From an uncultured Verrucomicrobiota bacterium (lineage in GTDB: Bacteria > Verrucomicrobiota > Verrucomicrobiia > Limisphaerales > UBA9464), in assembly GCA_903922605.1 (NCBI GenBank), contig CAIXUG010000054.1, positions 1 to 48,075 on the forward strand: a stretch of 48,075 nt of DNA, read 5' to 3'. Below, piece after piece: positions 1,663-24,425 of this stretch (positions are counted from its first letter, which is position 1; every line of letters starts with the position of its first letter). The translations under genes and the position numbers were made by a program. The notes below the pieces were generated by a model, which saw only the letters and a list, made by a program, of their open reading frames with translations, ran no database searches and had not been told where the DNA came from.

Positions 1663-1677
1663 GATTTCGATTTTCCC

Positions 1678-2415: not shown

Positions 2416-2433
2416 ACCACGCTGCCTGCGCCT

Positions 2434-3201
2434 ATGAATGACTACAGTCCGAGTAATCCGCCGCCCTTGCCAATCACCGCTGCCACTGCCGGTGGTGATG
2501 TGCTCGAAGCCGAACCCAGCGCCGCCGAACTTGCGCCCATTGGCAGCCTCGGCGCCATGCTCGAAGCGCTGCTACGCCGCCCGCGCGGCGTGCTGCACCA
2601 CCTCTCCGGTGCCGAGGCCGCGCGCCTTATCGGTCTGCTGCTTTTCATCGCGGCGGTCGGGGCGGCACTTTACGGAGTCGTGGTGGGCACTTTTTCCGGC
2701 GGTACGCAGCTCTGGGCCGCGCCGGTGAAGATCACGGCCGGCCTGTTTTTCTGCGGAGCCATCTGCCTGCCTAGTCTTTACGTGTTCGCCTGTCTCACCG
2801 GTTCGGTGGCCCGCATCAACGATGTCATCGGCATGGTGGCCGGACTGCTCGCCCTGATGACACTGTTGCTGTTCAGCTTTGCGCCGATCGCGTGGGTCTT
2901 CTCCCAGTCCACCGAATCCGTGGCGGCGATGGGCTCGATGCACCTGCTGTTCTGGCTGGTGGCCACGTACTTCGGGGCGCGCTTCCTGTACCATGGCATG
3001 GCCCGGCTGGGAGCCCGGTCGAAAGGCTCCTTTTATGTCTGGATGACCATCTTTGTGCTCGTGGCGCTCCAGATGACGACGGCGCTGCGCCCGCTTGTGG
3101 GCAAGGCCGACACCTTTCTGCCCAAAGAGAAGATGTTCTTCCTCCAGCACTGGGGTGAGGCGTTTTCGACGGATAAGTCGACAACCCCTAAGACTGACTG
3201 A
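2434..3201 (+). CDS. Multi-pass membrane protein, paralogue of preceding gene
   Basis: This 255-residue protein has a proline/alanine-rich cytoplasmic head of about 65 residues followed by five or six transmembrane segments, ending in a charged tail with LPKEKMFF. The order of hydrophobic segments matches the gene just upstream, which supports tandem duplication and a Yip1-like assignment. No catalytic motif is visible. Co-transcription with the upstream genes is likely from the 18-bp gap. Function unknown. Confidence 0.75.
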   Translation: MNDYSPSNPPPLPITAATAGGDVLEAEPSAAELAPIGSLGAMLEALLRRPRGVLHHLSGAEAARLIGLLLFIAAVGAALYGVVVGTFSGGTQLWAAPVKITAGLFFCGAICLPSLYVFACLTGSVARINDVIGMVAGLLALMTLLLFSFAPIAWVFSQSTESVAAMGSMHLLFWLVATYFGARFLYHGMARLGARSKGSFYVWMTIFVLVALQMTTALRPLVGKADTFLPKEKMFFLQHWGEAFSTDKSTTPKTD

Positions 3202-3257
3202 TCGGGTTACACCTCCCGCGAAACCGAACTGCTGATACTCAAATGAAGGGACCGTCC

Positions 3258-4445
3258 ATGATCAGGCGAACGCCAGTCCGGCTGGCGCTCGGTGGGCTCG
3301 CATTGTTGCTGGGCCTCCTGCTATGGCTGCCCTGCGTTCATTGGGTATTCCGCCCGGCGCTGGGCGAGGTGCGGAGTGAATCGGGAATTCCTTTACGGGC
3401 GAAAGAACTGGCGGCCCGTCAGTTGCGGCTTTGGAACGATCCGGTGGCCCGCGGAGCCGAACTCGCGCGGATGCGCAGCACCAACCCGGAGTGGGATTTC
3501 ATGGGGCGCACCTTTCTCGTGCTGGCATTGGCGGAGATGTCGCTGCGGGACCCCGCGTTGCAGGCCACGAACCTCGCGACCATGGATTTTGTGATCGAGG
3601 ACACCCTCCGGCTCGAGCGTGAACGTTCGATGCATACCTTCCTCATGCCGTATTCCCGGAGCCGGCCCTTTGTGCGGCAGCCGGAACGGAGCCTGTTCAT
3701 CGACTCTGAAATCGCGCTGATGCTCGGCGCCCGCCGGTTGGTGGCCGAGAAGCCGGGATTCGCGCCCCTGATGACGGAGCGCATCACGGCCATGGCGGAG
3801 CGGCTGCAGCAAAGCCCGGCGCTCGCAGTCGAGAGTTATCCGGATGAGTGCTGGCTGTTTGACCACGCAATGGCTCTGGCCGCGTTCCGCGTCGCGGATG
3901 TGCTCGATGGCACGGACCATCGCGCGCTGACCCAGGCATGGCTGGCAAACGCAAAGCGCACGCTCATTCATCCGCAAACCGGGATGCTGGTCTCCAATTA
4001 CACGGCGAAGGGACAGCCGATGGTCGGGCCGGAGGGTTCCTCCATCTGGGTGGCGGTGCACTGCCTGCGGCTGGTGGACGAGGAGTTTGCCCGGGATCAG
4101 TACCGGCGCGCCCGTCGCGAACTGGGCCGCGAACTGCTGGGCTTCGGCTGGTCGCGCGAATGGCCGCTCTCCTGGCGGGATCATCCCAACGTGGATTCGG
4201 GCGTGGTCATTCCTGTGCTCGACGCCAGCGCCGGTGGCAGCGGGCTGGCCTTCGTGGCCGCAAGTTCGTTCCGGGATGATGACTTCCTCCTCAAACTGCA
4301 TACCTCGCTGGAGTTCGCCGCCTTTCCGCAGCGTCGGGCCGGCGAAATGCGATATTGTGCCAGCAACCAGGTTGGGGACGCGGCGCTGCTGTATTCGCTC
4401 GTGATCGGGCCGATGTGGGATCGGCTGAAGGAGGGACGAAAATGA
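3258..4445 (+). CDS. Membrane-anchored protein, possible alpha/alpha-barrel
   Basis: The 395-residue product begins with a strong hydrophobic helix (residues 8-25) that serves as a signal anchor, followed by a large soluble part with repeated helices and motifs such as DECWLFDHAMALAAF and NYTAKGQPMVGPEGSSIW. The helical pattern and the WLFDHA motif recall alpha/alpha-barrel proteins such as the linalool dehydratase-like family, but this is a weak match from memory. I chose the ATG at 3258 over the in-frame ATG at 3243 because AAGGGA sits 6 bp upstream. The stop codon overlaps the next start in ATGA. Confidence 0.7.
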   Translation: MIRRTPVRLALGGLALLLGLLLWLPCVHWVFRPALGEVRSESGIPLRAKELAARQLRLWNDPVARGAELARMRSTNPEWDFMGRTFLVLALAEMSLRDPALQATNLATMDFVIEDTLRLERERSMHTFLMPYSRSRPFVRQPERSLFIDSEIALMLGARRLVAEKPGFAPLMTERITAMAERLQQSPALAVESYPDECWLFDHAMALAAFRVADVLDGTDHRALTQAWLANAKRTLIHPQTGMLVSNYTAKGQPMVGPEGSSIWVAVHCLRLVDEEFARDQYRRARRELGRELLGFGWSREWPLSWRDHPNVDSGVVIPVLDASAGGSGLAFVAASSFRDDDFLLKLHTSLEFAAFPQRRAGEMRYCASNQVGDAALLYSLVIGPMWDRLKEGRK

Positions 4446-4702
4446 AAACTATCCGCTGGCCGCGCGACTTTGCGTTCAACTGCGCCGTAACCCTCCTGGT
4501 GATCTGGCTGGTACTGCACGCGCTCGGATGGCGCGAAAGTGTGTCAGTGCTCTCCGGAACCCTGCCAGCTGGTTGGAACCGCGAAGCCGCAGCCGGGTGC
4601 GCCTTCAGTTATCTGCTCGCCTATTTTGGGGTCGTGCTGGTGGCTCCGGCTCTGTTGTTGTCGGCCTTGTTTCGCTGGCTGATTGTCCGGTTCAAGCCCT
4701 GA
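4442..4702 (+). CDS. Small membrane protein, two transmembrane helices
   Basis: This is an 86-residue protein starting MKTIRWPRDFAFN, with hydrophobic helices at about residues 12-27 and 55-78. Its ATG overlaps the stop of the upstream gene (ATGA), which is good evidence for translational coupling and for this start. AGGGACG, 4 bp upstream, can act as the ribosome binding site. It may be a partner of the upstream membrane-anchored protein; function unknown. Confidence 0.7.
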   Translation: MKTIRWPRDFAFNCAVTLLVIWLVLHALGWRESVSVLSGTLPAGWNREAAAGCAFSYLLAYFGVVLVAPALLLSALFRWLIVRFKP

Positions 4703-4807
4703 GGGAGTGCCTCTTTGCCGGAGTTAAGCTGGTTTCTATCCGCCAACATCCCAGCACGCCTATCTGCGGTTGAAGTTTTGCCCTCTCTAAAACGTCAAGC
4801 TGCCTTC

Positions 4808-5344
4808 ATGAACCACTCTGCCGTGCTTTTACGCCGCCTCCGCAACTGGACGTGGCTCATCATTGTCGGACTCGTGCTGAGCGGGCTGACAGCCATTCCC
4901 ATCCAAGCCCTGTTTGACTGGCTGGCCAGCTGGCTGGGTTCGGATTTTGGTGGTGGCGGCATGGTTCCTGAGTTCGCCGCAAAGTGGCTGGCCCACGCCT
5001 ATGTCGGCGTCAGCGTCACCAGTCGGAGCGCACCCTTTGTCTGGTATGGCACGGACTGGCTGGCGTTCGGTCACTTCGTGATCGCGCTCTCGTTTGTCGG
5101 GGCGCTGCGGGATCCAGTGCGCAACCGCTGGCTCTACCAGTTCGCGATGCTGGCCTGTGTCGCCGTGGTGCCGTGGGCGATGGTGTTCGGCGCGGTGCGC
5201 GGGATTCCACTTTGGTGGCGGCTGGTGGACTCCTCGTTCGGCGTGCTGGGTTTCGTGCCCGCGTGGCGTTGCTGGGGTTGGAGCGGTGAACTGGAAAAAC
5301 TGAACGCAACCGAACCGGCTCCGGTAACGCCGCCGCAACCGTAG
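4808..5344 (+). CDS. Multi-pass membrane protein of unknown function
   Basis: The 178-residue product (MNHSAVLLRRLRNWTW) has about four transmembrane segments: residues 14-36, 82-96, 106-130 and 140-160. A longer reading from TTG at 4715 would add 31 residues without hydrophobic or conserved character, so the ATG at 4808 is preferred. The short proline-rich tail APVTPPQP ends the protein. No motif gives a function. It follows the other membrane genes after a 105-bp gap. Confidence 0.7.
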   Translation: MNHSAVLLRRLRNWTWLIIVGLVLSGLTAIPIQALFDWLASWLGSDFGGGGMVPEFAAKWLAHAYVGVSVTSRSAPFVWYGTDWLAFGHFVIALSFVGALRDPVRNRWLYQFAMLACVAVVPWAMVFGAVRGIPLWWRLVDSSFGVLGFVPAWRCWGWSGELEKLNATEPAPVTPPQP

Positions 5345-5419
5345 CCCCACATTCATCCGTAAGCGGGAGGCCCGGATTTCCGTTCGCACCGTGCCTCCGC
5401 CTTTTGCACACTGACGGCC

Positions 5420-6457
5420 ATGAACATCAACGTCGGCATGGTGGGCACGGGCTTCATGGCCGTGGCGCATCTCAAGGCCTGGGCCAAGGTTCCGGGAGTG
5501 CGGATTGCCGCCCTTTGCAATCCCAGCGGGCGCAACTTGGACGGCAATTTTGCCGGAGTCGGTGGGAACGTGGGCGACGGCGAGGGTTTCCGTCTCGACA
5601 TGACGGGCGTGAAGACGTTTCGCGATCCGGCCCTGCTCTTTGCCGATCCCGACATCCAGATCGTCGATATCACCACGCCGACGAAGACGCACGAGTCGCT
5701 CACGATCGCGGCGCTGGCCGCCGGCAAGCACACGCTGATCGAAAAGCCCGTGGCGGGGACGGCGATTGAAGCCCGGCGCATTGCGTCAGCGGCGGCCGAG
5801 GCCGCCAAGCAGGGTGTCTTTCTGATGCCGGCCCACTGTCTGCGGTTCTGGCCCGAATGGACGTGGGTGCGCGCGGCGATTGCCGATGGCCGCTATGGCC
5901 GGGTGCTGAGCGCGCGCTTCCGCCGGGTCGCGCAACCGCCCGGATGGGGACGCGCACATTTTCTGGAGGGTGCGACGAGCGGTGGGGCGCTCTTTGACCT
6001 GCATATCCACGACGCGGATTTCGTCCAGTTTTGCTTCGGCAAGCCGCGTGCCGTGTTTGCCTCCGGGCACACCAAGGTCAGCGGGGCGATCGACCACGTG
6101 CTCGCCGTCTATCAGGTCGAGGGCGGCGCGACCGTCAGCGCGGAAGGCAGCTGGGCGATGAGCGACGGCTTCGGCTTCAAAATGTCCTACACGGTGAATT
6201 TCGAGCGGGCCACGGCCGATTATGACGGCGGACGGGGTCCGGAGGCGCTGAAGCTGTTTGTGCCGGGCCAGAAGCCAGAGGTGCTGCACCCCGCCGGAGG
6301 CGATGGCTACATCGGCGAACTCAGCTACTTCGCCGACTGCGTCCGCACCGGCCGCGCGCCAAGTATTGTCACCGCCAATGATGGCGCCGATGCGGTGGCG
6401 CTGTGCGAGGCGGAGGCAGAATCCATCCGGTCGGGACGGTTGGTGACGGTAGCCTGA
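5420..6457 (+). CDS. Gfo/Idh/MocA family NAD(P)-dependent oxidoreductase
   Basis: This 345-residue protein carries the family's Rossmann motif near the N-terminus (VGMVGTGFMAVAHLKAW, residues 5-21) and the conserved EKP (around 110-112, TLIEKPVAG) that places the catalytic Lys. The C-terminal half is the usual alpha/beta substrate domain with GALFDLHIHDADFVQF, where DLHIHDAD resembles the family's D-x-x-x-H. Members oxidise or reduce sugars and cyclitols using NAD(P). Substrate unknown. The HAD gene starts 7 bp after the stop, so the two are probably co-transcribed with the third gene of the trio. Confidence 0.9.
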   Translation: MNINVGMVGTGFMAVAHLKAWAKVPGVRIAALCNPSGRNLDGNFAGVGGNVGDGEGFRLDMTGVKTFRDPALLFADPDIQIVDITTPTKTHESLTIAALAAGKHTLIEKPVAGTAIEARRIASAAAEAAKQGVFLMPAHCLRFWPEWTWVRAAIADGRYGRVLSARFRRVAQPPGWGRAHFLEGATSGGALFDLHIHDADFVQFCFGKPRAVFASGHTKVSGAIDHVLAVYQVEGGATVSAEGSWAMSDGFGFKMSYTVNFERATADYDGGRGPEALKLFVPGQKPEVLHPAGGDGYIGELSYFADCVRTGRAPSIVTANDGADAVALCEAEAESIRSGRLVTVA

Positions 6458-6464
6458 TTTGGCC

Positions 6465-7271
6465 ATGGAACTTCGTCCTGGCTTTCGTCCGCATTCCCGG
6501 CTCACACACGTCGTCTTCGACTGGGACGGCACGCTTTCGCTCATCCGCGCAGGCTGGGGTGAGGTGATGATGGCGCAATGGCTGGCACTGATTCCCCGGC
6601 TGCCCGGCGAGTCGGCGGAACAGCTCCGGCACCTTGCGCATGACGACATCTGGCGGCTGAACGGCAAGCCTTCCATCCATCAGGCCGCCCAACTGGCTGA
6701 GCGCATCCAGGAACGCGGTGGGCAGCCTCTTTCCGCCGTGGACTACGAGAATGACTACCAGCGCCGCCTGGGCGAAGTGGTCGGGGCGCGGCTGGCGGCG
6801 GTGCGCTCCGGGGCCGTCGCAACCGATGCCTGGCTCGTGACGGCTGCCCGCCGAGCTATCGAGACCTTCGCCGGACGCGGCCTGACGCTGCATGTGGTGA
6901 GCGGGACGCAGCGGCGTTTCGTCGTCGAGGAGGCGGAGGCGTTGGAGGTGGCGCAACATTTTGGCCGGCGCATTCATGGACCGACGAGTGAGCATGACAC
7001 GGCCTATTCCAAGCGCGGGGTCATCAACGCGATTCTGCGGGACCATGCGATCGGCGGCGAACAGCTCCTGGCGTTTGGCGATGGACATGTCGAGATCGAG
7101 CAGACGAAGCTCGTTGGTGGCTTGGCCGTCGCGGTGGCCACCGATGAGTCCCAGTTTCATTCCGGCCGGATCGACGCCCCGAAGCGCGACCGGCTGATGG
7201 GGATGGGCGCGGATATCTGCATCCCGGATTTCCGCGAACTGGACGCGCTGCTGCCAGTGCTGTTTCCCTAG
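6465..7271 (+). CDS. HAD-superfamily phosphatase
   Basis: The 268-residue protein has HAD motif I FDWDGTLS, motif II VVSGT (in LHVVSGTQRRF), a Lys in YSKRG and motif IV FGDGHVEIE. Between them lies an alpha-helical cap of about 100 residues. It is probably a cytoplasmic phosphohydrolase for a small sugar phosphate. The ATG at 6465 is preferred over TTG at 6459. The stop ends 5 bp before the next ATG. In this setting, next to a sugar oxidoreductase, a role in making or salvaging a modified sugar is inferred. Confidence 0.85.
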   Translation: MELRPGFRPHSRLTHVVFDWDGTLSLIRAGWGEVMMAQWLALIPRLPGESAEQLRHLAHDDIWRLNGKPSIHQAAQLAERIQERGGQPLSAVDYENDYQRRLGEVVGARLAAVRSGAVATDAWLVTAARRAIETFAGRGLTLHVVSGTQRRFVVEEAEALEVAQHFGRRIHGPTSEHDTAYSKRGVINAILRDHAIGGEQLLAFGDGHVEIEQTKLVGGLAVAVATDESQFHSGRIDAPKRDRLMGMGADICIPDFRELDALLPVLFP

Positions 7272-7276
7272 TGCCC

Positions 7277-8377
7277 ATGCCACCGCTGGACCTCAGCCGC
7301 CTGAAGGTGCTTCCGCTCGCCAGCCGGAAGAGCCTCACCCGCGTCGAAGACATTCTCGTCGCGCCGGATTCGGCCCCGAAACCCGTGACGCCCGAGCTCG
7401 CCACTTCCATCCGTGAGGCGGCGGCGCGCATCCGTACCGCCCGGGAACGGGATGCGCAGGTGATCCTCATGTATGGCGCACACCTGCTGCGCAACGGCGC
7501 GGCGCAGATCGTGGGCGAGCTGATGCGGCGCGGCTTTGTCACGCATCTGGCCACCAATGGCGCGGGAACCATCCACGACTGGGAATATGCCTGGATGGGC
7601 AGCTCCACCGAGAGCGTGGAGGAGAATGTCGCCACGGGCACGTTCGGCACCTGGGATGAGACCGGCCGCAACATCCATCTCGCGCTGCTGACGGGGGCGC
7701 TGCTCGGCCTCGGTTACGGCCGCGCGCTCGGCAAGTTCATTGATGAGGATGGCTGCGACGTGCCTTCCGTGCGGATGCTCACGCATCTGGTGACCGAGTT
7801 CATCGGCGATCCGATGGCGGCGGCCGGCTGTGAACTGCTGGCCACTATGCAGCGTTTCGGAATCGAGCCGGGCCGCATCCATATCCCGCACGGCTGGAAG
7901 CAGGGCAGCATCCTGGCCCAGGCCTTCCAGTGCAGCGTGCCGGTGACGGTTCATCCGGGCATCGGCTACGACATCATCTCGTGCCACCCGATGTTCAATG
8001 GCGCGGCGATTGGCCGGGCGGCGGCGGAAGATTTCCGGCTGTTTGCCGGAGCGGTCGAGGGGCTGGACGATGGGGTGGTGCTGTCGGTTGGTTCGGCGAT
8101 CATGGCCCCGCAGGTCTTCGAGAAGAGCCTGAGCTGCGTCCACAATCTGCGCTTCCAAACCAATCGCCCGCCCGTCCACGGCCACAGCATCTACGTGGTG
8201 GATTTGCAGGATGGCGGTGGCTGGGACTGGTCACAGGGCGAACCGCCGAAGACCAACCCGGCGTACTACCTGCGCTTCTGCAAGAGCTTCTCCCGGATGG
8301 GCGGCGCGATGAACTACCTGCAATGCGACAACGTGACCTTCGTCCACCACCTCTTCCACGAGCTGATCCGAGGGTAG
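7277..8377 (+). CDS. Conserved protein, possible deoxyhypusine-synthase-like fold
   Basis: This 366-residue protein has segments such as VILMYGAHLLRNGAA, THLATNGAGTIHDWEYAWMG and VPVTVHPGIGYDIISCHP. These recall the GSU2086-type family of conserved unknowns, which I associate with a deoxyhypusine synthase-like Rossmann fold; this is recollection, not a search. Deoxyhypusine itself is not a bacterial modification, so another NAD-linked reaction is likely if the fold is right. The ATG at 7277 is chosen over GTG at 7271, which overlaps the upstream stop. It is the third gene of a tight trio with an oxidoreductase and a HAD phosphatase. Confidence 0.7.
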   Translation: MPPLDLSRLKVLPLASRKSLTRVEDILVAPDSAPKPVTPELATSIREAAARIRTARERDAQVILMYGAHLLRNGAAQIVGELMRRGFVTHLATNGAGTIHDWEYAWMGSSTESVEENVATGTFGTWDETGRNIHLALLTGALLGLGYGRALGKFIDEDGCDVPSVRMLTHLVTEFIGDPMAAAGCELLATMQRFGIEPGRIHIPHGWKQGSILAQAFQCSVPVTVHPGIGYDIISCHPMFNGAAIGRAAAEDFRLFAGAVEGLDDGVVLSVGSAIMAPQVFEKSLSCVHNLRFQTNRPPVHGHSIYVVDLQDGGGWDWSQGEPPKTNPAYYLRFCKSFSRMGGAMNYLQCDNVTFVHHLFHELIRG

Positions 8378-8391
8378 GCGTCCGGGGCAGA

Positions 8392-9333
8392 TCAGAGCGG
8401 CTTGGCCATCTTCGCGGCCAGCCGGGCGGTGAAGGATTCGGCGGCGTTGTAGCCGGAGAGCTTCAGTTTGGTCTGCAACGCGGCGATCTCGATCAGGTTG
8501 GCGAGGTCACGACCGGGCCGGACCGGGATCGTCATGCGCGGAATCTGCTGGCCGAGCAGTTCGGTGGTTGCCTGTTCCAGTCCGAGGCGGTCCACCTCCT
8601 CCGAGTCGTTCCAGTGCTGGAGGGTGATGAGCAGGTTGATGCTCTTCTCGTGGCGGATGGCGCCGACCCCGAACATCGCGGCCACGTCGATGATGCCGAT
8701 ACCGCGCACTTCCATGAGATTGCGCCCGATGTCCTTGGAGGTGCCCATGACATCCAGGCCGTCCTCGAGCCGGAGGAGCACTACATCGTCCGCGACGAGG
8801 CTGTGGCCGCGTTCCAGCAGGCCGAGCACCGCCTCGCTTTTGCCGATGCCGCTGACGCCCTGGATGACCACCCCGACGCCCTGGATATCCACCATGCAGC
8901 CGTGCAGCTGGCCGCGCGGGGCGAAGAGGTTCTCCAGCGCGAGCGTGGCGCGGCTGATGAACTTCATCGTGATCAGCCCGGTGGTGAAGAGCGGCACGTC
9001 ATGCCGCTCGGCCGCCTCGATGAAGAGCCGGCCCGGCTTCAGGTCGCGGCAGAGCACCATGCAGGGGATGTGATGCTTGAACAGCTCGTCCACCCGCCCG
9101 CGCTGGACCTCGGTGTCCAGGGAACGGAGGTAGGCGGTCTCGACATTTCCCACGACCTGCACGCGCTTGGGGGCGAAGTAGCGCTTGAAGCCGGCGAGCG
9201 CCAGGCCGGGGCGGTTGACGGTCGGCTCCCGGATGATGCGCTTGAGCCCGGCCGCGCCGGCGACGAGCTGCAACCCCAGCTCGATCGCGTGCCGGGTGTA
9301 AAACTGTTCGACCGTGAGGTTGGTGGCGGACAT
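8392..9333 (-). CDS. hprK: HPr kinase/phosphorylase
   Basis: HprK phosphorylates or dephosphorylates HPr on Ser in response to the metabolic state. The 313-residue length is standard. Residues 1-130 are the N-terminal domain (with VEQFYTRHAIELGLQLVAG). Then come the P-loop QGVSGIGKSEAVLGLLERGH, the following LVADDVV, and the family signature EVRGIGIIDVAAMFG. The conserved His in ERGHSLVADD is present. No HPr or PTS gene lies in the window. In Proteobacteria and relatives hprK often sits downstream of the lpt genes, as here, which supports the call. It is the last gene of the minus-strand run from kdsC. Confidence 0.95.
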   Translation of the reverse strand: MSATNLTVEQFYTRHAIELGLQLVAGAAGLKRIIREPTVNRPGLALAGFKRYFAPKRVQVVGNVETAYLRSLDTEVQRGRVDELFKHHIPCMVLCRDLKPGRLFIEAAERHDVPLFTTGLITMKFISRATLALENLFAPRGQLHGCMVDIQGVGVVIQGVSGIGKSEAVLGLLERGHSLVADDVVLLRLEDGLDVMGTSKDIGRNLMEVRGIGIIDVAAMFGVGAIRHEKSINLLITLQHWNDSEEVDRLGLEQATTELLGQQIPRMTIPVRPGRDLANLIEIAALQTKLKLSGYNAAESFTARLAAKMAKPL

Positions 9334-9346
9334 GGCGGGGGCAAAG

Positions 9347-9664
9347 TCAGATCAATTCCAGTTCCGTCGCAAGCTTGTGTCGCAGGGCGGACAATTGAAG
9401 GGGCGGCATGAAACCCAGCCTTTGGATCAGCTTTGGCAACGAAACGGGTTGTACCTGCTGGAGGTGGAAGACGCCCTGTTTCAAGAAAGCCAGGTCAGCG
9501 TTAAACTCCCAGCGGTTGTGGCGCACGGCAGTGGTGTGAGGGACGATCAGGACCAAGGCCAGCTCATCATCACCAGGGTAACGGCTCAAAAGCAGGACTG
9601 GGCGTGTCTTGGCGGCATAACCCAGATCTGCGAGCCATATTTCACCGGGACTCGGCCGTGGCAT
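9347..9664 (-). CDS. PemK/MazF-family toxin
   Basis: This 105-residue protein starts MPRPSPGEIWLADLG and has KTRPVLLLSR, then VPHTTAVRHNRWEFN and a C-terminal helix, the layout of PemK/MazF mRNA interferases. The conserved R-P-x-L/V-V/L stretch is present, and the family's Thr in PHTT is kept. Such toxins cut mRNA at short sites. Its start overlaps the 3' end of the antitoxin gene by 23 bp, which suggests translational coupling. A longer frame from 9769 is a shadow through the antitoxin gene. Confidence 0.85.
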   Translation of the reverse strand: MPRPSPGEIWLADLGYAAKTRPVLLLSRYPGDDELALVLIVPHTTAVRHNRWEFNADLAFLKQGVFHLQQVQPVSLPKLIQRLGFMPPLQLSALRHKLATELELI

Positions 9665-9830
9665 CTTGGGCCTCCAGGTGGTCGAGCAGTCTGAAGTTCT
9701 CCGCTGCGGCGCGATCGCAGTCGTCCAACGTTCGCCGGTCCTCCTCCAGGTCGAAGATGAGGCGGGCAATGTGCCGCCGTTCCGAATGAGAGAGCTTCGG
9801 CAGTTCGGCGGCGATCTCGCTGGCGCTCAT
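9642..9830 (-). CDS. Antitoxin of the PemK/MazF pair
   Basis: This 62-residue protein (MSASEIAAELPKLSHSERRH) is small and charged, with an N-terminal LSHSERRHIARLIFDLEED helix typical of small antitoxins that neutralise PemK-type toxins, and no enzyme motif. An alternative start at 9866 would add 12 residues. Position directly upstream of, and overlapping, the toxin gene is the main evidence. Antitoxins of this kind usually repress their own operon. The pair interrupts the lptB-hprK interval. Confidence 0.8.
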   Translation of the reverse strand: MSASEIAAELPKLSHSERRHIARLIFDLEEDRRTLDDCDRAAAENFRLLDHLEAQDATAESR

Positions 9831-9875
9831 GAGTTGACTTGTAGCTGGAGTGTGGCGCTTTGGCAAAGCGCGGTT

Positions 9876-10613
9876 TCAGACGTTAAAATCCGGTCCGAGG
9901 TAGATGTCGCGAGCCTTGGGATTGTTGGCCAGATAGTCAGCAGTGCCCTCGATCATGACCTTGCCCTTCACGATGATGTAGCCACGGTCGATGAGCTTGA
10001 GCATTTCCCGCGCGCTGTGGTCGGTGATCAGGATGCCCAGGCCGCGGTCGCGCAGGCGGCGGATGATCTTTTGCACCTCGTAAACGGCGATGGGGTCGAT
10101 GCCGGCGAAAGGCTCGTCGAGCAGCAGAAGCTTGGGGCTGGTGACGAGCGCGCGGGTGATTTCGAGGCGCCGCTTCTCGCCGCCGCTGAGCTGGTAGGCG
10201 TAGCTCTTGGCCAGCGAAGTGAGATCCAGTTCGCCCAGCAGATGGCGCAGGCGGATGGCGCGTTCCTGCCGGCTGCCCTCGCAGGTTTCCAAGATGGCGA
10301 GGATGTTCTGCTCGACCGTGAGCTTGCGAAAGACGCTCGGCTCCTGCGTGAGGTAGCCGATGCCCAGCCGGGCCCGCTCATGCATGGGCAGCCCGGTGAT
10401 GTCCTGCCCGTTGAACTGCACGCCGCCCTCATCAGGCCGTACCAGCCCGACCGCCATGTTGAAGCTGGTGGTCTTGCCGGCGCCGTTCGGCCCGAGCAGG
10501 CCGACAATCTCGCCGGCGTTCACATGCACCGACACGCCATCCACCACCCGCCGCCCCTTGTAGGCCTTGGCGAGGGAGTCGAGCGTGAGCAGACGCTGGG
10601 ATTCGTTCGGCAT
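9876..10613 (-). CDS. lptB: LPS export ABC transporter ATP-binding protein LptB
   Basis: LptB powers extraction of LPS from the inner membrane with the LptFG permease. The 245-residue protein shows the P-loop LLGPNGAGKTTSFNMAVG, Q-loop region YLTQEPSVF, signature LSGGEKRRLEITRAL, Walker B LLLDEPFAGIDP and the switch His in LITDHSAREML. These are classic for LptB and its length is standard. It follows lptA by 27 bp on the same strand. The LptFG permease genes are not in the window. Confidence 0.95.
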   Translation of the reverse strand: MPNESQRLLTLDSLAKAYKGRRVVDGVSVHVNAGEIVGLLGPNGAGKTTSFNMAVGLVRPDEGGVQFNGQDITGLPMHERARLGIGYLTQEPSVFRKLTVEQNILAILETCEGSRQERAIRLRHLLGELDLTSLAKSYAYQLSGGEKRRLEITRALVTSPKLLLLDEPFAGIDPIAVYEVQKIIRRLRDRGLGILITDHSAREMLKLIDRGYIIVKGKVMIEGTADYLANNPKARDIYLGPDFNV

Positions 10614-10640
10614 CGGGGCGGGTCGAAAAAAGGCGGAAAA

Positions 10641-11201
10641 TCAGCGAGCCGCAGGCGAATTCGTCCGGGGGCCGAACAGGGAGGAGTTTCTGAGTACGCT
10701 GGCCTTCAGGCTGAGATGGAAACCCTGCTCGCCTTTGAATCCGCCGGAAATGCGGTCATAAGTCAGGATGGCGGCAGTGATGACGCCTTCCGGCGTCTCG
10801 TAACGTGGTTGGCCGGTCTCGGGCGAGCCGGTCAGCCGCACCGTGTTGTTATTGCCGTTAAAAACGGCCTGAAAGGCCAGGGCGCGGTTGGTGGAAAAAA
10901 GCTGGCCGCCAGAAGCGGGCTGGATGGTGAGCAGCACCACGTTGGTGGTCGCGATGATCTGGTCAACGACGCGCTTGCCGAGGGAATTGGTGCCCTGCTG
11001 GAACACGAAATCATCACAGCGGAGATCGAGCACGCCGGGTTGGACGAGATGGACGTTGCCCCAGACATGGCCGCTGCCGGTCTTTTGCTCGTAGGTGCCC
11101 TGATCGCCGGTCAGGTCAATATCGCTGGCCGAGGTGTCCTCCGCGTGGAGCACGGCCGGAAGCAGGGCGAGAAGCAGGGGCAGGAGGAAACGGAGGTTCA
11201 T
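10641..11201 (-). CDS. lptA: LptA-like periplasmic LPS transport protein
   Basis: This 186-residue protein has a cleavable signal peptide (LLPLLLALLPAVLHA, cut likely after HA at about residue 20) followed by an OstA/LptA-type beta-jellyroll sequence: DIDLTGDQGTYEQKTGSGHV, then DLRCDDFVF. LptA forms the periplasmic bridge that carries LPS from the inner to the outer membrane. The sequence is divergent, but its position between lptC and lptB supports the call. The C-terminus (RTNSPAAR) is short. Confidence 0.8.
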   Translation of the reverse strand: MNLRFLLPLLLALLPAVLHAEDTSASDIDLTGDQGTYEQKTGSGHVWGNVHLVQPGVLDLRCDDFVFQQGTNSLGKRVVDQIIATTNVVLLTIQPASGGQLFSTNRALAFQAVFNGNNNTVRLTGSPETGQPRYETPEGVITAAILTYDRISGGFKGEQGFHLSLKASVLRNSSLFGPRTNSPAAR

Positions 11202-11207
11202 GGAGCG

Positions 11208-11696
11208 CTACGGTTTGGCTGCAGGGGAAGGAGTCGTGGTGGCGGTGCCCAGGGAGCCGGAACGGAAGGTCAGGTGAAGCTTGTTCGAGATCGTGAGCCG
11301 TCCGGACTCATGGTCCCAGCGGAAGCCCTCGCCACGAAGACTGAGCTGGCCATCAGCCTGGAGCACGGTCAGGGGGCCGCTGGAGGTGGCGACTTTGGCC
11401 GCCGCATCCAAAGTGCATTGCGGCGCCGTGCCGACCAATTCGGGCGTGCCATCCTCACGGGCGGTTTCCACCCGGAATTGCTCGACGTTCACTATCGTGG
11501 GCTGCGCAAAACTGACCGGCTTGAACGCCGCCCCTTTGAACCAGGTGCGCACGACCCCGTTCTTGTCCCGGATCGGGAAACTGTAGCCGGTGGTGGCGGC
11601 GGTCGGGCTTTGCGCCAGGGCCCGGAAAGCTATCAGCAACGTCACGGCGGCAAGGGCCGAGACGGCGGCCAGCTGGGCAATCGGAACGCGCTTCAC
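11208..11696 (-). CDS. lptC: LptC-like inner-membrane LPS transport protein
   Basis: The 162-residue protein has one N-terminal transmembrane segment (residues 9-28, VSALAAVTLLIAFRALA) and a beta-rich periplasmic part with repeating short strands (FPIRDKNGVVRTWFKGAAF, then GPLTVLQADGQLSLRGEGF). Such a layout matches LptC, which binds LPS from LptBFG and passes it to LptA. Sequence similarity is weak and the symbol rests mainly on position: it lies 6 bp upstream of lptA and 30 bp downstream of kdsC. Confidence 0.7.
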   Translation of the reverse strand: MKRVPIAQLAAVSALAAVTLLIAFRALAQSPTAATTGYSFPIRDKNGVVRTWFKGAAFKPVSFAQPTIVNVEQFRVETAREDGTPELVGTAPQCTLDAAAKVATSSGPLTVLQADGQLSLRGEGFRWDHESGRLTISNKLHLTFRSGSLGTATTTPSPAAKP

Positions 11697-16053: not shown

Positions 16054-16770
16054 TCAGATGGTTTCGGATCCGGCCGACGAGTCCTTGAGCCAGGGATAAT
16101 ATTTGGCCAGGAAGGAATGGCAGGATTTACGGTTTCTCTGGCATTTGTGTCGAGACAGCTCACGCACCTGTTTAGCGAAATCTTCAGGTGGCGCGCCGAG
16201 TTCGAGGAGATACTTGATGGCACAAGTGGCTCCGAAGGCGATCCAGTTGCAGAACTCGTTATCCTCCCGCAGCCCTGGATGGGACCAGAGGGCCTCAAGG
16301 TGGGCGAGCAGTGTCGGTTTTGCCTTGGGGTGCCTCGTCTGCGCAATCCCTTGGGAAATGTTGGCGGCTGCGACGCCAAGCTCGGTCGCTTGGAGGGCGG
16401 TCAACAGCAGGCCAAAAGCCTCGTCTTGCGGAAGATGCATCGCGATCGGGAGGGCAACGGCCGACCAATCACAAAAATCTCCGCCCTGCATGACGTAGCG
16501 GAGAATTTCTGGAAAGTCTTCCTGCTCTTTGAGCCACGAACAGGCGTTGCAAAAGTCGTGACGCTCTCGGGTAGTCCATGAGCCCCAATCACGTTCCAAC
16601 TCCGGAAAAGTAATTGCGGCAGAGCCGTCCATGAACCGGGAAATGACATACCCCCGCTGGTTGTCCTCTGTGTGGTAATGGCGTTGCCAGCGGGTTTCGG
16701 AAGCCAGCATGTACCTCACGCCGTCGGAGATGAGGGCTGCAGGATACTCTTTCCCGTAGTCGTCGTTCAT
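16054..16770 (-). CDS. Unknown protein, copy 1 of a paralogous pair
   Basis: The 238-residue protein is clearly related over its whole length to the gene at 19516-20226. Shared blocks include LASETRW, VISRFMDGSAAITF, ACSWL, LPQ(D/E)EAF and YYPWLKD/YFPWLKD. Both are rich in Trp, Cys and His and look cytoplasmic and helical; no signal peptide or known enzyme motif is seen. Upstream of both, TGACAAARATYCARG is conserved and an in-frame GTG (16794) or TTG (20250) could be the true start, adding LRVL/LRTL. Function unknown. Confidence 0.7.
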   Translation of the reverse strand: MNDDYGKEYPAALISDGVRYMLASETRWQRHYHTEDNQRGYVISRFMDGSAAITFPELERDWGSWTTRERHDFCNACSWLKEQEDFPEILRYVMQGGDFCDWSAVALPIAMHLPQDEAFGLLLTALQATELGVAAANISQGIAQTRHPKAKPTLLAHLEALWSHPGLREDNEFCNWIAFGATCAIKYLLELGAPPEDFAKQVRELSRHKCQRNRKSCHSFLAKYYPWLKDSSAGSETI

Positions 16771-16806
16771 GGATTTGAGAACCCGTAAGCTCACCCTGAA
16801 TCTTTG

Positions 16807-19493: not shown

Positions 19494-19528
19494 ATTACGA
19501 TTTACGACTTACGATTTACGAATTGAGA
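19494..19528. repeat. Heptanucleotide tandem array (TTACGAN type)
   Basis: Five 7-bp units run in register: ATTACGA, TTTACGA, CTTACGA, TTTACGA, ATTGAGA. The array covers the last codons and stop of the unknown gene at 19516-20226, so its terminal residues come from repeat sequence. A related array lies at 24481-24508; both are followed by ACGGCGG. Confidence 0.75.
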
Positions 19529-20226
19529 ACGGCGGGCGGGTCCTTGAGCCAGGGGAAATATTTGCCAAGATGGGTGGGGCAAAATTCTCGGTTGTTGGTG
19601 CAGACATGCCGTGAAAGGGCTCGCACCTGCTCCTCGAACTCATGGGGAGGCGCTCCCACTTCAATGAGGTGGTTGATGCTGCACATTGCCGCGAAAGCGA
19701 TGTCATTACAGAATTTATCATCCTCCCAGAGTCGTGGGTCGGCCCATAAGGCCATCAGGTGGGTCCGCAAAAGCGGCTCGGCTTGGGGGTGTTTCGTCAG
19801 GCAGATGCCTTGGGCAATGTTGGGGCTGGCTTCCAAACCTCCTGCCTGAAGCACGTTCGACAAACGGCTGAACGCTTCCTCCTGTGGAAGGTGGGTGGCA
19901 ACGGACAGCGCAATGGCCGACCAAGTACAACAATCTCCGTGCCGCATGAGGTAACGGAGAATCTGAGGGAAGTCTTTCTCCTTGTGAAGCCACGAGCAGG
20001 CGCTGCAAAAACTCTGACGCTCCCGGTCGTCCCATGAATCCCAATCGCGCGCCAGCTCGGAAAAAGTGATGGCGGCGGAACCATCCATGAACCGCGAAAT
20101 CACCCGCCACCGCTTCTTGCTTTCGTCGCCGTAGCGACGTTCCCACCGGGTTTCGGAGGCAAGCTCAAACCTTCCACCGTCGTCGACGATCGCTGCAGGA
20201 TACTCCGCTCCAAAGTGGCTTTTCAT
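19516..20226 (-). CDS. Unknown protein, copy 2 of a paralogous pair
   Basis: The 236-residue protein is the paralogue of that at 16054-16770, sharing FMDGSAAITF, ACSWLHKEKDFP and YFPWLKDPP. It carries conserved Trp, Cys and His residues but no motif that I recognise. The 3' end runs into a heptamer repeat array, which supplies the stop. A TTG at 20250 could be the start if the conserved upstream LRTL residues are translated. Just upstream lies a fragment of a KASIII gene end. Immunity or regulatory roles are possible but unsupported. Confidence 0.7.
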   Translation of the reverse strand: MKSHFGAEYPAAIVDDGGRFELASETRWERRYGDESKKRWRVISRFMDGSAAITFSELARDWDSWDDRERQSFCSACSWLHKEKDFPQILRYLMRHGDCCTWSAIALSVATHLPQEEAFSRLSNVLQAGGLEASPNIAQGICLTKHPQAEPLLRTHLMALWADPRLWEDDKFCNDIAFAAMCSINHLIEVGAPPHEFEEQVRALSRHVCTNNREFCPTHLGKYFPWLKDPPAVLNS

Positions 20227-20262
20227 AGCGGTGAGGGTCCGTAAACCCAACTTGGATTTTTG

Positions 20263-20819: not shown

Positions 20820-23800
20820 TCACCCTGTAAACTCCAGCACCGCCGCGCCAAACGTGAAGCCACCGCCGAAGGCGCAGAGGCCGGCCTTGCCCTTGGGCTG
20901 CTCGCGGAGCAGTTCGGCCAGCACGACCGGGATCGTGCTGCTGCTCGTGTTGCCGCTGTTTTTCACGCGGTTCACGAGGCGGCCCTTCCGCATCTTCAGC
21001 CGCTGGTCCACCGCGTCGAGGATGCGTCCGTTGGCCTGGTGCGGGATGATGTAGTCGAGATCCTCGGCCGCGAGTTCGTTAGCGGCGCACGCCTGCTTGA
21101 GCAGCGCGAGGAGCTGGCGCACGGCCATGGGGAAGACCTTCATGCCGTCCATGTTCACGTTCGGGTGCTCGCGCCGGCCATGGTTCAGGATCGTGCCATC
21201 TTCGCCGCGGGCGCTCAGCAGCGGGCGGTGGAGCAGGGCGCGGGCACCGGCGAACTTCGCCGATTGCGGCCCGTGCACCAGCGTCGCCGTCGCTGCGTCG
21301 GCAAATACGATGGCAGTGTCGAAATCCTCCGGGTCGGTGAACGTGCTCATGGCCTCGGCCGTGACCACGAGGATGTTGGCGGCCGGGCGCGACTGGCAGA
21401 AATCAAAGGCCGCCTGCAAGGCGTACAGGTAGCCGGTACAGGCCGCGAGAATGTCGCTGGCGGGCACGTCCTTGGCCGCGCCGTCCTTGCCCAGCTCGTG
21501 ATGGAGCAGGCAGGCCATGCTCGGGCTCAGCGAGATCGGCGAGCTGGTGCTGACGAAGATGGCGTCCAGGTCCGACAGCGTCAGACCGGACTCACGTAGG
21601 GCGGAGCGTGCCGCCGCTGACGCTAAGGTGAGCACCGTCTCGCCCTCAGCGAGGAGGTGGCGCGACTCGATGCCGGTACGCTGGACAATGTCGTTCGCGG
21701 TACGGTTGGGGAAGCGGAGCACCAGTTCCTCATTGGTAACGATACGGCCGCCCTGGACGGCGGCGATGCTCGAGAGGCCGACGACCGAACGGAGAGGACG
21801 AAAAAGGGGCCACGAGTCGGCGGAAAGGCCGTGGTGGCCATTGTTACGCAAGGCCGCGTCGGGAAGAGAATGGAAGACGGGCGAGCCGCCCGTCCTACTT
21901 TCGGGACGCCGCTTCACCAGCGGCTTCGGTTCGGCGGGGATGCGCTTGGGCGTCGCCGGAGCGGCGATGGAGGTGAGAATCTTGGCGAGCGGGCTGCCGA
22001 CGGGGACTTTTTCATCCGTCGGGAGCAGTTCGCGGATGACACCGCCGACCGGGGCGCGCAGCTCAAACGTCGCTTTTTCGGCTTCGCAGTCCGCAATGAA
22101 GTCGCCGGCCTTGATGGTGTCGCCGACGCGCACTTTCCATTCGATGACGGTGACATTCTGGTCGGCGGGACTGGAACCAACCGCTTCGAGCACGAACACG
22201 CCGGCATCACCGACGGCCTCGGCCTCCCAGCCCAGGTCCAGTTCGCAGAGCGCAGCGGCGGCTTCGAGGATGCGTTTGAGGCTCGGGAGCACTTCGAGCT
22301 GGTTGGCGTAGTTGCACGGCACGTAGGTGTCGGGCCGGGTGACCCGGCGCGACTTCACCGGCGAGGTGGCGTGCTCGGCCACGGTCGCAAGAACTTCCGC
22401 GCCGAAGCCGCAGGTCAGGTTGTCCTCGTGGACGACGATGAGCCGTCCCGTGCGGCTGGCGCTGGTGCAGACGGCTTCAGTATCCCAAGGACTCAGGCTG
22501 CGCAGGTCGATGAGCTCGGCGTGGACTCCGGCGGCTTCAAGTGCCGCGACCGCACGGGCACAGAGCGGCACGGTCCCACCCCAGGTCACAATGGTAAGAT
22601 CATCCCCCCGGGAGACGAAGCGCGCCTTGCCGGGCAGAACGAGCTGCTTGGTGATATCTGCACTCGTACTGAGCGCGGGATCGTTCAGGCAGACCTTCGG
22701 ATAGAGGAAGACGGTGGGCCGACCGCTGGCGAATGCGGCGTTGAGCAGGCCGGCAGCGTCAGCCGCCGTGCTGGGCATGACGACATCTACCCCGGGTACG
22801 TGGGCGATGATGCTTTCGAACGTCTGCGCGTGGAAGGGTCCAAGGCCGGGCCGATAGCCGCCGCAAGGCGTCATCACGATGACCGGCGCCTGCCAGCCAC
22901 CATGGGTCCGCCAGTGCATGGAGCCAAGTTCGCTGGCGATCTGGTTGAACGCGATGGGCAGGAAGTCGGCGAACTGGATGCACGCCACGGGCTGTCCGCC
23001 CGCGAGAGCCCGGCCCACGCTCACGCCGGCGATCGTGCTCTCGGCCAGGGGCGCATTCTTCACCTGGGTGGGGAAGCTGGTCGAAAGCCCGCGCGTGAGA
23101 CCGAACACATCGCCCTTCGGATCCTCAATGTCCTGACCGAACATGGAGACGCGGGCGTTCGCGGAAAGGTGGTGCCGCAGGACCTCGCGCATGGCCTCCA
23201 TCATCGAGAGGCGTGGGGCCGAATCGTCGCCGCGATATTCCTTCAGCGCGGCCAACTGCATCGGTAACGCCGGGCGGGCGTCGAGATTGGCGACCGGATT
23301 GGCCGTGGCCAACGTGCGGTCGGCGGCGGCGCGGACTTCGCGTTCGGTGTCGGCTTCCAGTTCTTCAAGCTCCGTGGGCGGAACGCCAAATTCCAACAGC
23401 TGGGAGCGCAGTTTGGCCAGCGGATCGGCCTGGGCGCGCACCTGCGAAATTTCGCCTTCCTTGCGGTAGCGTGTCTCGTCATCGGCGTTGGTGTGATGCG
23501 TGAGCCGTTCGACGTTGAACACGACGATGGCCGGGCCGTGAGACTCCCGGAGACCGCGCACGATCGGGCCGAGCGCCTGGTCGCAGGCCAGCGGATCGCG
23601 GCCATCGAGCCGGTGGATGGGCAGGCCGTAGAACTCCGCCGCATCGCCCTGTGGAAGCTGGTAAAAGGTGTTGCCGCGCGTGTGCGTCGAGATCGCGAGG
23701 CCATTGTCCTCGATCCAGAAGAGCACGGGCAGCCGGGCGCGGACGGCCTCGGCGACGGCTTCGAGGAACTCGCCTTGCTGGCTGGTGCCATCACCCACGG

Positions 23801-24305
23801 CACAGACAACTAGAGCGTGCGCGGTCGGGGAGCCGTTGAGTCCCTGCCGGCTGACCAGCTCATGCGCCACACCGACGGCTTGGAGGGCGTTGTTGCCGAC
23901 GGGACCGACGAGGCTGAGCACCTTCAGCTCGGGGGCGCTGAGGTGCGCGCTCATCTGGCGGCCGGCGGAATGGCTGGCCCCGGTGCAGAGCGAGCTGTGG
24001 AAAAACTGCTCCGCCGGGATGCCGCGGGCGAGCATGAGCGCCTTGTCGCGGTAATGCAGATGCAGCCAGTCCTCGGGCGTGAGGTGGAAGTTCAGCGCCG
24101 CGCAGGCTTCATGCCCGGCCCCGCCCACGTGAAAGAAGGCCTCGCCCCGGTTCACGAGTTCCATTTCGACACGGTCCACGGCCCGCGAGGTGACCATGGC
24201 GCGGTAAAGCGTCACGGCCCGGGCGATGTCCGGACGTGAGGGGGCAGATGGATGACCGTTGCGGGCAACGGTCGCATCGGCACGGGTTGCTACGACTGAA
24301 TCCAC
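20820..24305 (-). CDS. Fusion: 2-oxoacid dehydrogenase E1 alpha/beta, lipoyl domain, KASIII
   Basis: This 1161-residue protein joins four units. Residues 25-345 are E1alpha, with the thiamine-diphosphate motif GDGTSQQGEF (171-180) and IEDNGLAIST. Residues 365-690 are E1beta (FGQDIEDPKGDVFG, then VTWGGTVPL). Residues 710-780 are a biotinyl-lipoyl domain with Lys744 in EAEKATFE. Residues 835-1161 are a FabH-like synthase with Cys956 (AACTGYLYALQ), His1089 (IIPHQAN) and Asn1119 (NSGNTSSST). The E2 acyltransferase core is absent. The E1 part would decarboxylate a 2-oxoacid and the KASIII would start chain growth, so priming from branched or aryl acyl groups is inferred. Residues 798-816 are encoded by a palindromic repeat. 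The start is GTG. Confidence 0.93.
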   Translation of the reverse strand: MDSVVATRADATVARNGHPSAPSRPDIARAVTLYRAMVTSRAVDRVEMELVNRGEAFFHVGGAGHEACAALNFHLTPEDWLHLHYRDKALMLARGIPAEQFFHSSLCTGASHSAGRQMSAHLSAPELKVLSLVGPVGNNALQAVGVAHELVSRQGLNGSPTAHALVVCAVGDGTSQQGEFLEAVAEAVRARLPVLFWIEDNGLAISTHTRGNTFYQLPQGDAAEFYGLPIHRLDGRDPLACDQALGPIVRGLRESHGPAIVVFNVERLTHHTNADDETRYRKEGEISQVRAQADPLAKLRSQLLEFGVPPTELEELEADTEREVRAAADRTLATANPVANLDARPALPMQLAALKEYRGDDSAPRLSMMEAMREVLRHHLSANARVSMFGQDIEDPKGDVFGLTRGLSTSFPTQVKNAPLAESTIAGVSVGRALAGGQPVACIQFADFLPIAFNQIASELGSMHWRTHGGWQAPVIVMTPCGGYRPGLGPFHAQTFESIIAHVPGVDVVMPSTAADAAGLLNAAFASGRPTVFLYPKVCLNDPALSTSADITKQLVLPGKARFVSRGDDLTIVTWGGTVPLCARAVAALEAAGVHAELIDLRSLSPWDTEAVCTSASRTGRLIVVHEDNLTCGFGAEVLATVAEHATSPVKSRRVTRPDTYVPCNYANQLEVLPSLKRILEAAAALCELDLGWEAEAVGDAGVFVLEAVGSSPADQNVTVIEWKVRVGDTIKAGDFIADCEAEKATFELRAPVGGVIRELLPTDEKVPVGSPLAKILTSIAAPATPKRIPAEPKPLVKRRPESRTGGSPVFHSLPDAALRNNGHHGLSADSWPLFRPLRSVVGLSSIAAVQGGRIVTNEELVLRFPNRTANDIVQRTGIESRHLLAEGETVLTLASAAARSALRESGLTLSDLDAIFVSTSSPISLSPSMACLLHHELGKDGAAKDVPASDILAACTGYLYALQAAFDFCQSRPAANILVVTAEAMSTFTDPEDFDTAIVFADAATATLVHGPQSAKFAGARALLHRPLLSARGEDGTILNHGRREHPNVNMDGMKVFPMAVRQLLALLKQACAANELAAEDLDYIIPHQANGRILDAVDQRLKMRKGRLVNRVKNSGNTSSSTIPVVLAELLREQPKGKAGLCAFGGGFTFGAAVLEFTG
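21868..21910. repeat. Palindromic repeat in the coding linker of the fusion gene
   Basis: GACGGGCG (21876-21883) and CGCCCGTC (21887-21894) form an 8-bp stem with a 3-base loop, flanked by GGAA on one side and CTACTTT on the other. The same unit occurs twice at 30769-30874. Here it lies in the linker between lipoyl and KASIII domains and is read in frame, giving ESRTGGSPVF. Confidence 0.8.
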
Positions 24306-24354
24306 GGGTAGCAGGGTGGCTGATTTCGGAGGGGAGCGAAAGGCGAAAGGTTGG

Positions 24355-24425
24355 AGCGGGTGACGGGAATCGAACCCGCGTGGCTAGTTTGGAAGACTAG
24401 AACTCTACCATTGAGCTACACCCGC
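24355..24425 (-). tRNA. tRNA-Gly (anticodon TCC)
   Basis: The minus strand reads GCGGGTG acceptor arm, TAGCTCAATGGTAGAG D-arm, anticodon stem CTAGT/ACTAG around loop CTTCCAA with anticodon TCC, and T-arm CGGGTTCGATTCCCG, closing with CACCCGC. All four stems pair. The 71-base gene does not encode CCA. It decodes GGA/GGG glycine codons. Confidence 0.95.

Follow-up and report, generated by a model that had tools for sequence, protein, structure and literature searches.

A 48,075-nt stretch of contig CAIXUG010000054.1 (positions 1-48,075; the window) from an uncultured Verrucomicrobiota bacterium encodes one protein in which the E1alpha and E1beta parts of a 2-oxo acid dehydrogenase are followed by a lipoyl domain and a FabH-like beta-ketoacyl-acyl carrier protein (ACP) synthase III (KASIII). 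In the textbook scheme, the link from 2-oxo acid oxidation to the initiation of fatty acid chains is free acyl-coenzyme A (CoA). In this protein the link appears to have been removed, with the handover built into a single chain. We favour, with modest confidence, a single-chain, lipoyl-fed and probably CoA-free synthase of beta-ketoacyl-ACP primers that carry branched or other large acyl groups. More generally, we lean slightly towards an enzyme family in which KASIII replaces the E2 acyltransferase, the CoA site has been lost, and the acyl primer would be taken straight from lipoyl-lysine.

One open frame carries E1, lipoyl and KASIII domains

The gene lies on the minus strand at 20820-24305, with 1161 codons open and no internal stop. 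In the encoded protein, Pfam matched E1_dh at residues 34-331 (E = 1.7e-39), Transket_pyr at 366-537 (E = 1.5e-22), Transketolase_C at 559-671 (E = 7.1e-30), Biotin_lipoyl at 718-776 (E = 2.1e-12), ACP_syn_III at 951-1012 (E = 1.3e-16) and ACP_syn_III_C at 1073-1158 (E = 4.2e-22). The E2 core (PF00198), the E3-binding domain (PF02817) and a carrier-protein domain were all absent from the nine Pfam families matched at E up to 1. With the broader KASIII model NF006829 the protein scored 255.5, above the cut-off of 249; with the curated fabH model TIGR00747 it reached 233.7 bits, below the cut-off of 292.1.

A preliminary description, made from the sequence alone, had assigned these four parts to one protein that lacks the E2 catalytic core, and both statements are borne out by the single frame and the Pfam matches. 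The residues it named are also correct: Lys744 of the lipoyl domain and Cys956, His1089 and Asn1119 of KASIII are each identical in all 42 full-length sequences that we assembled (the window, 15 loci from named contigs and 26 genomes of the phylum).

Fused KASIIIs lack the adenine contacts of FabH and keep much of the carrier-arm site

An excerpt of PMC4606726 describes a superposition with CoA-bound E. coli FabH in which Thr28 bonds to the adenine, Trp32 and Arg151 sandwich it, and Arg36, Asn209 and Asn246 (Yersinia numbering) hold the phosphopantetheine. The 42 fused KASIIIs were aligned with 28 standalone FabHs, each from a different fusion-carrying genome (including G115, in which the fusion is split), and the residue register was read off by aligning the window protein to E. 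coli FabH 1hn9. Thr28, Trp32 and Arg151 were present in 28/28 standalone FabHs and in 0/42 fused KASIIIs; at these positions the window protein has Arg868, Asp872 and Phe995. Asn247 (Yersinia 246) and Arg249, which we take to be the ACP-docking residue, were found in every sequence of both sets, and Arg36 in 28/28 standalone and 35/42 fused sequences. Among the 72 columns invariant in the standalone FabHs, 28 are unchanged in all fused KASIIIs and 16 never show the FabH residue there. All three adenine contacts fall within these 16, with a chance of about 0.009 if columns are exchangeable.

From this alignment, much of the carrier-arm site appears to remain with the adenine contacts gone, so that the part that normally holds CoA appears to have been lost. 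The residue losses favour a donor other than CoA, short of proof. They also bear on the ordinary acyl-CoA route, in which a separate E2 serves the acylated lipoyl group, KASIII uses acyl-CoA and the fusion just co-locates the activities. We consider this route improbable though deserving of weight, and the absence of the CoA-adenine contacts from all 42 fused KASIIIs argues against it.

The gate of the acyl pocket has changed as well: position 87 is Phe in 28/28 standalone FabHs, whereas 29 of the 42 fused KASIIIs have Thr there and 13 have Ser. In an excerpt of PMC3734052, the bulky Phe87 of E. coli FabH is associated with preference for acetyl-CoA and Thr87 of M. tuberculosis FabH with long acyl groups. 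The acyl pocket of the fused KASIIIs should be wider, and such a small gate residue makes an acyl group larger than acetyl probable.

Another candidate role is that of a loading acyltransferase, with KASIII moving the acyl group from lipoyl to ACP in the absence of condensation, as has been proposed for a stand-alone KASIII of tetrahydroisoquinoline antibiotic clusters; the corresponding KASIIIs of dnacin and naphthyridinomycin (DinQ/NapE) are described as probably acyl-loading in an excerpt of PMC7570522. We think this quite improbable for the fusion, given that all 42 sequences have the full Cys-His-Asn condensing triad and that a Pfam scan of 20 window open reading frames (ORFs) showed no natural-product cluster.

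The E1 part keeps probable reductive-acylation residues

E1alpha His271 and Asn201 and E1beta Glu422 and His492 are present in 42/42 sequences. The thiamine diphosphate (TPP) motif varies slightly, with Asp172 replaced by Glu in 3/42 and Gly173 by Ser in 2/42. The window's His271 loop, LTHHTNADD, aligns with IGHHSTSDD of the E1alpha of human branched-chain 2-oxo acid dehydrogenase (BCKDH). From this alignment and the residue numbering, we take His271 to be His291-alpha of PDB entry 1ols, and His492 is presumably its His146-beta'. By its title, entry 1ols concerns the roles of these two histidines in reductive acylation. Since His271, His492 and Lys744 are conserved, the E1 looks equipped for reductive acylation of the lipoyl group, that is, built to acylate lipoyl beyond mere decarboxylation. 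Together, the E1alpha/E1beta pair with its TPP motif and catalytic residues and the lipoyl domain with its attachment lysine make up a set of BCKDH-type features.

Genomes with the fusion and their E1, E2 and E3 complement

In the genome that the window comes from (5.3 Mb in 90 contigs, 95.84% complete), the fusion is the sole E1_dh match above 100 bits; the other match is a transketolase. An AceE-type pyruvate E1 is encoded on contig C66, and the single E2, which has an E3-binding domain, adjoins E3 on contig C85. This E2 fits an AceE-type pyruvate complex, though aceE is on another contig. The presence of AceE for pyruvate in this genome points to a different substrate for the fusion. Counting the window's genome, the fusion is the only E1_dh match above 100 bits in 5/28 genomes (G000, G087, G035, G032 and G245), each of which has one E2 together with an AceE-type pyruvate E1 that scores over cut-off; aceE adjoins the E2 gene in 4/5. 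Among nine further genomes reached through their loci, those of L004, L006 and L008 show the fusion plus a weak second match only, and the other six have more.

For the ordinary acyl-CoA route, these data cut both ways. In its favour are the presence of at least one E2 core in each of the 28 genomes searched and a phylum fusion, L052, that carries an E2 core of its own; an excerpt of PMC3838401 also gives the product of Photorhabdus Bkd as acyl-CoA. Set against it, the lone E2 of the five genomes fits an AceE pyruvate complex, adjoining aceE in four, and no E3-binding domain was matched in the fusion with Pfam at E up to 1.

Other components were common. E3 (TIGR01350) was over cut-off in 28/28 genomes, as was a standalone FabH over its curated cut-off. 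The window's own genome also encodes LipA, ACP and two class-IV aminotransferases, all over cut-off, which makes the supply of lipoyl, partner and substrate plausible.

The fusion is shared across several bacterial groups

Relatives are encoded at 20 distinct loci from named contigs, and 15 of these have the full domain order, each in one open frame: nine Verrucomicrobia metagenome-assembled genomes (MAGs), two Thiotrichales, two Devosia, Rhizobium cauense and one contig labelled Borreliella garinii. Among the matches listed for 288 genomes of the phylum, scored at two candidates per genome, a stop-free, full-length fusion was found in 27, the window's included. The match is split over two contigs in two more, G115 and G053. 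At order level, 13/146 genomes gave matches at 1e-180 or better and 12 of the 13 extend into KASIII; the exceptional alignments cover 25-784 only (G323) and 164-1159 (G386). The full order was not found on plasmid records, where 959 had E1-type matches and 0 reached 80% query coverage.

The count of 42 omits L001, which repeats the window; L050 and L023, both truncated, the former by the contig end; the L014 paralogue that has no KASIII; and L017-L020, L051 and L052, where no KASIII part was matched. L042 was kept by hand; its BLAST row covered 33-776 only, and its KASIII part is included in the KASIII alignment.

The preliminary description had proposed surveying homologues for the same domain order and for an in-frame stop or separate genes. 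The order was found uninterrupted in all 42 full-length sequences, in which neither a stop nor separate genes occurred. The fusion is not a local accident and is shared across Verrucomicrobiota, Thiotrichales, Devosia and Rhizobium. Since relatives carry the full order in one stop-free frame, a frame artefact is excluded. Nothing was found in favour of two genes having been joined wrongly in assembly or annotation. This reading is refuted by the identical uninterrupted order in 42 sequences from separate genome records, some not marked as MAGs, and has practically no probability left.

Several related loci were noted on their own account. The contig labelled Borreliella garinii (L016), by its name a sulfur cave MAG, encodes a full fusion, and its species label is probably wrong. 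In the Thiotrichales locus L014, a 793-amino-acid paralogue (4615-6996, plus strand) ends after the lipoyl domain and adjoins the full fusion (7917-11321, plus strand), with a DJ-1/PfpI-family gene between the two. Pfam found no KASIII in this paralogue, which shares 50% identity with the window protein in the region they have in common and could be an intermediate or a partner feeding another acceptor. On two Streptomyces plasmids, a fused E1alpha/beta gene immediately precedes a nonribosomal peptide synthetase gene (L053, 11953-13965; L054, 11902-13935). Their products are 36-39% identical to the E1 part of the window protein and are perhaps suppliers of an acyl starter.

Evidence that weighs against the proposal, and the question of substrate

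A number of observations weigh against a lipoyl-fed, CoA-free synthase of branched primers. The first group concerns the KASIII alignment. A branch with support 99/99 separates the fused KASIIIs from the unfused ones, so the residue losses may be one ancestral event rather than 42 independent ones. Divergence is high (mean identity of fused and standalone KASIIIs, 32%), and thirteen further invariant FabH columns have been lost, Phe87 among them and some outside the CoA site. Half of the fused KASIIIs (21/42) have Trp in the Thr28 column, which might be another way of holding a nucleotide. An unfused KASIII paralogue that genome G128 has in addition to its standalone FabH (L089, 2224-3471, minus strand), has Asp at Trp32 and keeps Arg151. 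The Asn209 column is uninformative because even the standalone FabHs have Arg, Lys or Gln there, with no conserved Asn. Finally, the comparison set consisted of the standalone FabHs of fusion genomes rather than of KASIIIs with proven donors.

The same holds for the genomes and gene neighbourhoods. Another E1_dh protein above 100 bits was found in 23/28 genomes, so the argument from a sole E1_dh is not general. No fatty acid gene was seen next to the fusion among the window ORFs scanned with Pfam, and ORF clustering across loci found no neighbour conserved beyond close relatives.

For the substrate, the E1 comparisons point in both directions. The closest PDB relatives of E1alpha are the Thermus 2-oxo acid dehydrogenase 1um9_A (128 bits), human BCKDH 1dtw_A (90) and pyruvate dehydrogenase 1w85_A (82). 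This ranking is weak because the 2-oxoisovalerate E1alpha 1qs0_A, presumably a Pseudomonas enzyme, scores only 54 bits. The best PDB match of E1beta is 1ik6_A, named as a pyruvate dehydrogenase, at 187.5 bits, next to 186 for Thermus 1um9_B. Pyruvate dehydrogenase models also rank first among the NCBIfam E1 models, each scoring far short of its cut-off. There are Verrucomicrobiota papers that name branched fatty acids, among which no strain was linked to the fusion gene.

Direct transfer of a non-branched acyl group (aryl-acetyl, long or hydroxylated, for example), yielding a specialised lipid or a small molecule instead of the bulk fatty acids of the membrane, would accommodate several of these data: a small gate residue cannot tell branched from aryl or linear groups, the E1 family scores are mixed, and homologues occur in Devosia and Rhizobium, which are mainly straight-chain organisms. 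We give this alternative a low probability, in that E1alpha scores best, for what the ranking is worth, with branched-chain or broad 2-oxo acid dehydrogenases. Branched-chain 2-oxo acids are the substrates that we tentatively consider most likely; the residues themselves speak for this choice as far as 'larger than acetyl'.

Proposed reaction sequence

In the sequence that we favour, E1alpha/E1beta would decarboxylate a 2-oxo acid larger than pyruvate, likely derived from Val, Leu or Ile, on TPP, as suggested by the residues present. Reductive acylation of the lipoyl group on Lys744 would follow, given His271, His492 and Lys744. The lipoyl domain could then swing on its linkers to the KASIII of its own or a partner chain, where the acyl group would pass to Cys956 by thioester exchange, by-passing free acyl-CoA. 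The triad and Arg249 are consistent with a last step in which His1089 and Asn1119 drive decarboxylative condensation, presumably with malonyl-ACP, to a branched 3-oxoacyl-ACP. Dihydrolipoyl would be re-oxidised in trans by the cell's ordinary E3, which is present.

The preliminary description had already proposed that the acyl group passes from TPP to lipoyl-Lys744 and on to the KASIII Cys with no free CoA. That proposal gains from the adenine contacts lost in 42/42 sequences, the retained ACP-docking Arg, the missing E2 core and the fit of the lone E2 to AceE. The direct transfer from lipoyl to Cys956 is a step that we infer because the adenine contacts are lost and E2 is missing.

If the proposal is true, fatty acid chains could be started from 2-oxo acids in a CoA-free manner, and the fusion could be the sole route to branched primers in some Verrucomicrobiota, which would explain branched fatty acids in bacteria that have no branched-chain E2. 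The protein would also be a compact, assayable machine for branched starters, offering a clean test of whether a KASIII can be charged from lipoamide, and would have engineering value in not drawing on the CoA pool.

Structure model, linkers and gene neighbourhood

The AlphaFold2 model of the whole chain has a mean predicted local distance difference test (pLDDT) score of 78.4 and a predicted template modelling score of 0.60. Scores below 50 were found for residues 1-24 and for the longest inner stretch, 802-838, ahead of KASIII. Nine shorter inner stretches also fall below 50, including 786-791 in the linker and 112-120 and 484-492 in the E1 part; because of the latter, details of the E1 active site are not readable from the model. 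In VIA-align comparisons of Foldseek matches, the KASIII part superposed on S. aureus FabH 1zow_A with Z 41.2 (309 aligned residues, 2.1 A) and E1beta on Thermus 1um9_B with Z 39.7 (318 aligned, 2.2 A). Across the family, the linker between E1beta and the lipoyl domain has 25-27 residues. The linker between the lipoyl domain and KASIII has 35-62, is rich in Ala, Pro and Arg, and is probably flexible. The features of the locus are given in Table 1.

Table 1. Position of the fusion gene, its parts and the neighbouring tRNA gene in the window.
Feature	Position	Strand	Basis and remarks
Whole fusion gene, E1alpha-E1beta-lipoyl-KASIII	20820..24305	minus	ORF, 1161 amino acids, GTG start; Pfam; 42 full-length sequences
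E1alpha, residues 34-331	23313..24206	minus	PF00676; TPP motif GDG 171-173 ... N201; putative reductive-acylation His271
E1beta, residues 366-671	22293..23210	minus	PF02779/PF02780; Glu422 and His492 invariant
Lipoyl domain, residues 718-776	21978..22154	minus	PF00364; predicted attachment Lys744, codon 22074-22076
Lipoyl-KASIII linker, residues 779-841	21783..21971	minus	Low pLDDT; Ala/Pro/Arg-rich in the family
KASIII (FabH-like), residues 840-1160	20826..21788	minus	PF08545/PF08541; Cys956, His1089, Asn1119; gate residue Ser927
tRNA-Gly(TCC), neighbour outside the system	24352..24425	minus	Directly upstream of the fusion, same strand

The remaining window ORFs scanned with Pfam include dihydroorotase-like, major facilitator superfamily and sugar isomerase-like proteins, among others, and several gave no match. 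Two of those with no Pfam match, 19516-20250 and 16054-16794 (minus strand), cluster with each other by BLAST. ORF clustering, in which the flanks of loci from unnamed contigs extend only about 1.5 kb, gave, the family itself aside, four clusters that recur in at least three loci; some pairs of close relatives share more. A phosphoenolpyruvate-utiliser/GAF protein adjoins seven loci of one group (L028, L029, L031 and L033-L036), and a radical SAM protein adjoins L032, L040 and L041. One cluster is common to the window, L004 and L023, and another to L019, L020 and L038. In the window, the tRNA-Gly(TCC) gene immediately precedes the fusion. A tRNA scan of 15 loci of relatives found it at the corresponding place in L004, L005 and L006, and no tRNA in the remaining 12.

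Comparison with known systems

The fusion shares with BCKDH the E1alpha/E1beta pair, its TPP and reductive-acylation residues as assigned above, and the lipoyl domain. It differs in having no detected E2 core or E3-binding domain, with KASIII in the place of the acyltransferase. With FabH, its KASIII shares the thiolase fold (Z 41.2), the Cys-His-Asn triad and Arg249, whereas it has neither the CoA-adenine contacts nor Phe87, scores below the TIGR00747 cut-off and is fused behind a lipoyl domain.

Within the phylum, L052 (genome G060, 1408-4545, plus strand) has E1alpha, E1beta and lipoyl domains in the same order, with 34% identity over the shared part, but ends in an E2 core (PF00198, by Pfam) where the fusion has KASIII. 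As judged from its domains, this E1-E2 fusion should make acyl-CoA. Frames of 1012-1140 amino acids with E1-type matches were also seen in the phylum, among the matches listed; PF00198 was confirmed for L052 only. Mutual exclusion of KASIII and E2 fusions across the 288 genomes was considered and is not claimed, as two candidates were scored per genome and L052 alone was checked with Pfam.

Among natural-product systems, the dnacin proteins DinQ, DinT, DinU and DinS and the naphthyridinomycin proteins NapE, NapC, NapB and NapD bring together a KASIII, an ACP and a two-part transketolase (excerpt of PMC7570522). The likeness to the fusion is a thiamine enzyme, a carrier and a KASIII in one pathway, the Nap and Din proteins loading a two-carbon unit onto ACP. 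They differ in being separate proteins of a natural-product cluster that use a hydroxyethyl unit from a ketose, with KASIII proposed for loading (same excerpt).

The closest published analogue appears to be BkdABC of Photorhabdus. In excerpts of PMC4578411, PMC4901931 and PMC8248439, BkdABC forms a 5-methyl-3-oxohexanoyl thioester and is needed for iso-fatty acids, and BkdB contains an acyl carrier protein that is activated by the phosphopantetheinyl transferase NgrA. For the stilbene pathway, Photorhabdus Bkd is said simply to make isovalerate-CoA (excerpt of PMC3838401). Among open-licence PubMed Central papers, no paper was found for plu1883-1885, and no description of the fusion architecture was found by title or abstract start; we do not claim that it is unpublished. 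Compared by description, the likeness lies in the 2-oxo acid dehydrogenase type, branched-chain in the case of BkdABC, and in a 3-oxoacyl thioester as product, predicted in the case of the fusion. BkdABC is a multi-gene operon with its own carrier protein, whereas the fusion is one chain with neither a carrier-protein domain nor a conserved neighbour. What would set the fusion apart from known systems is this one-chain design, in which the lipoyl domain is predicted to feed KASIII.

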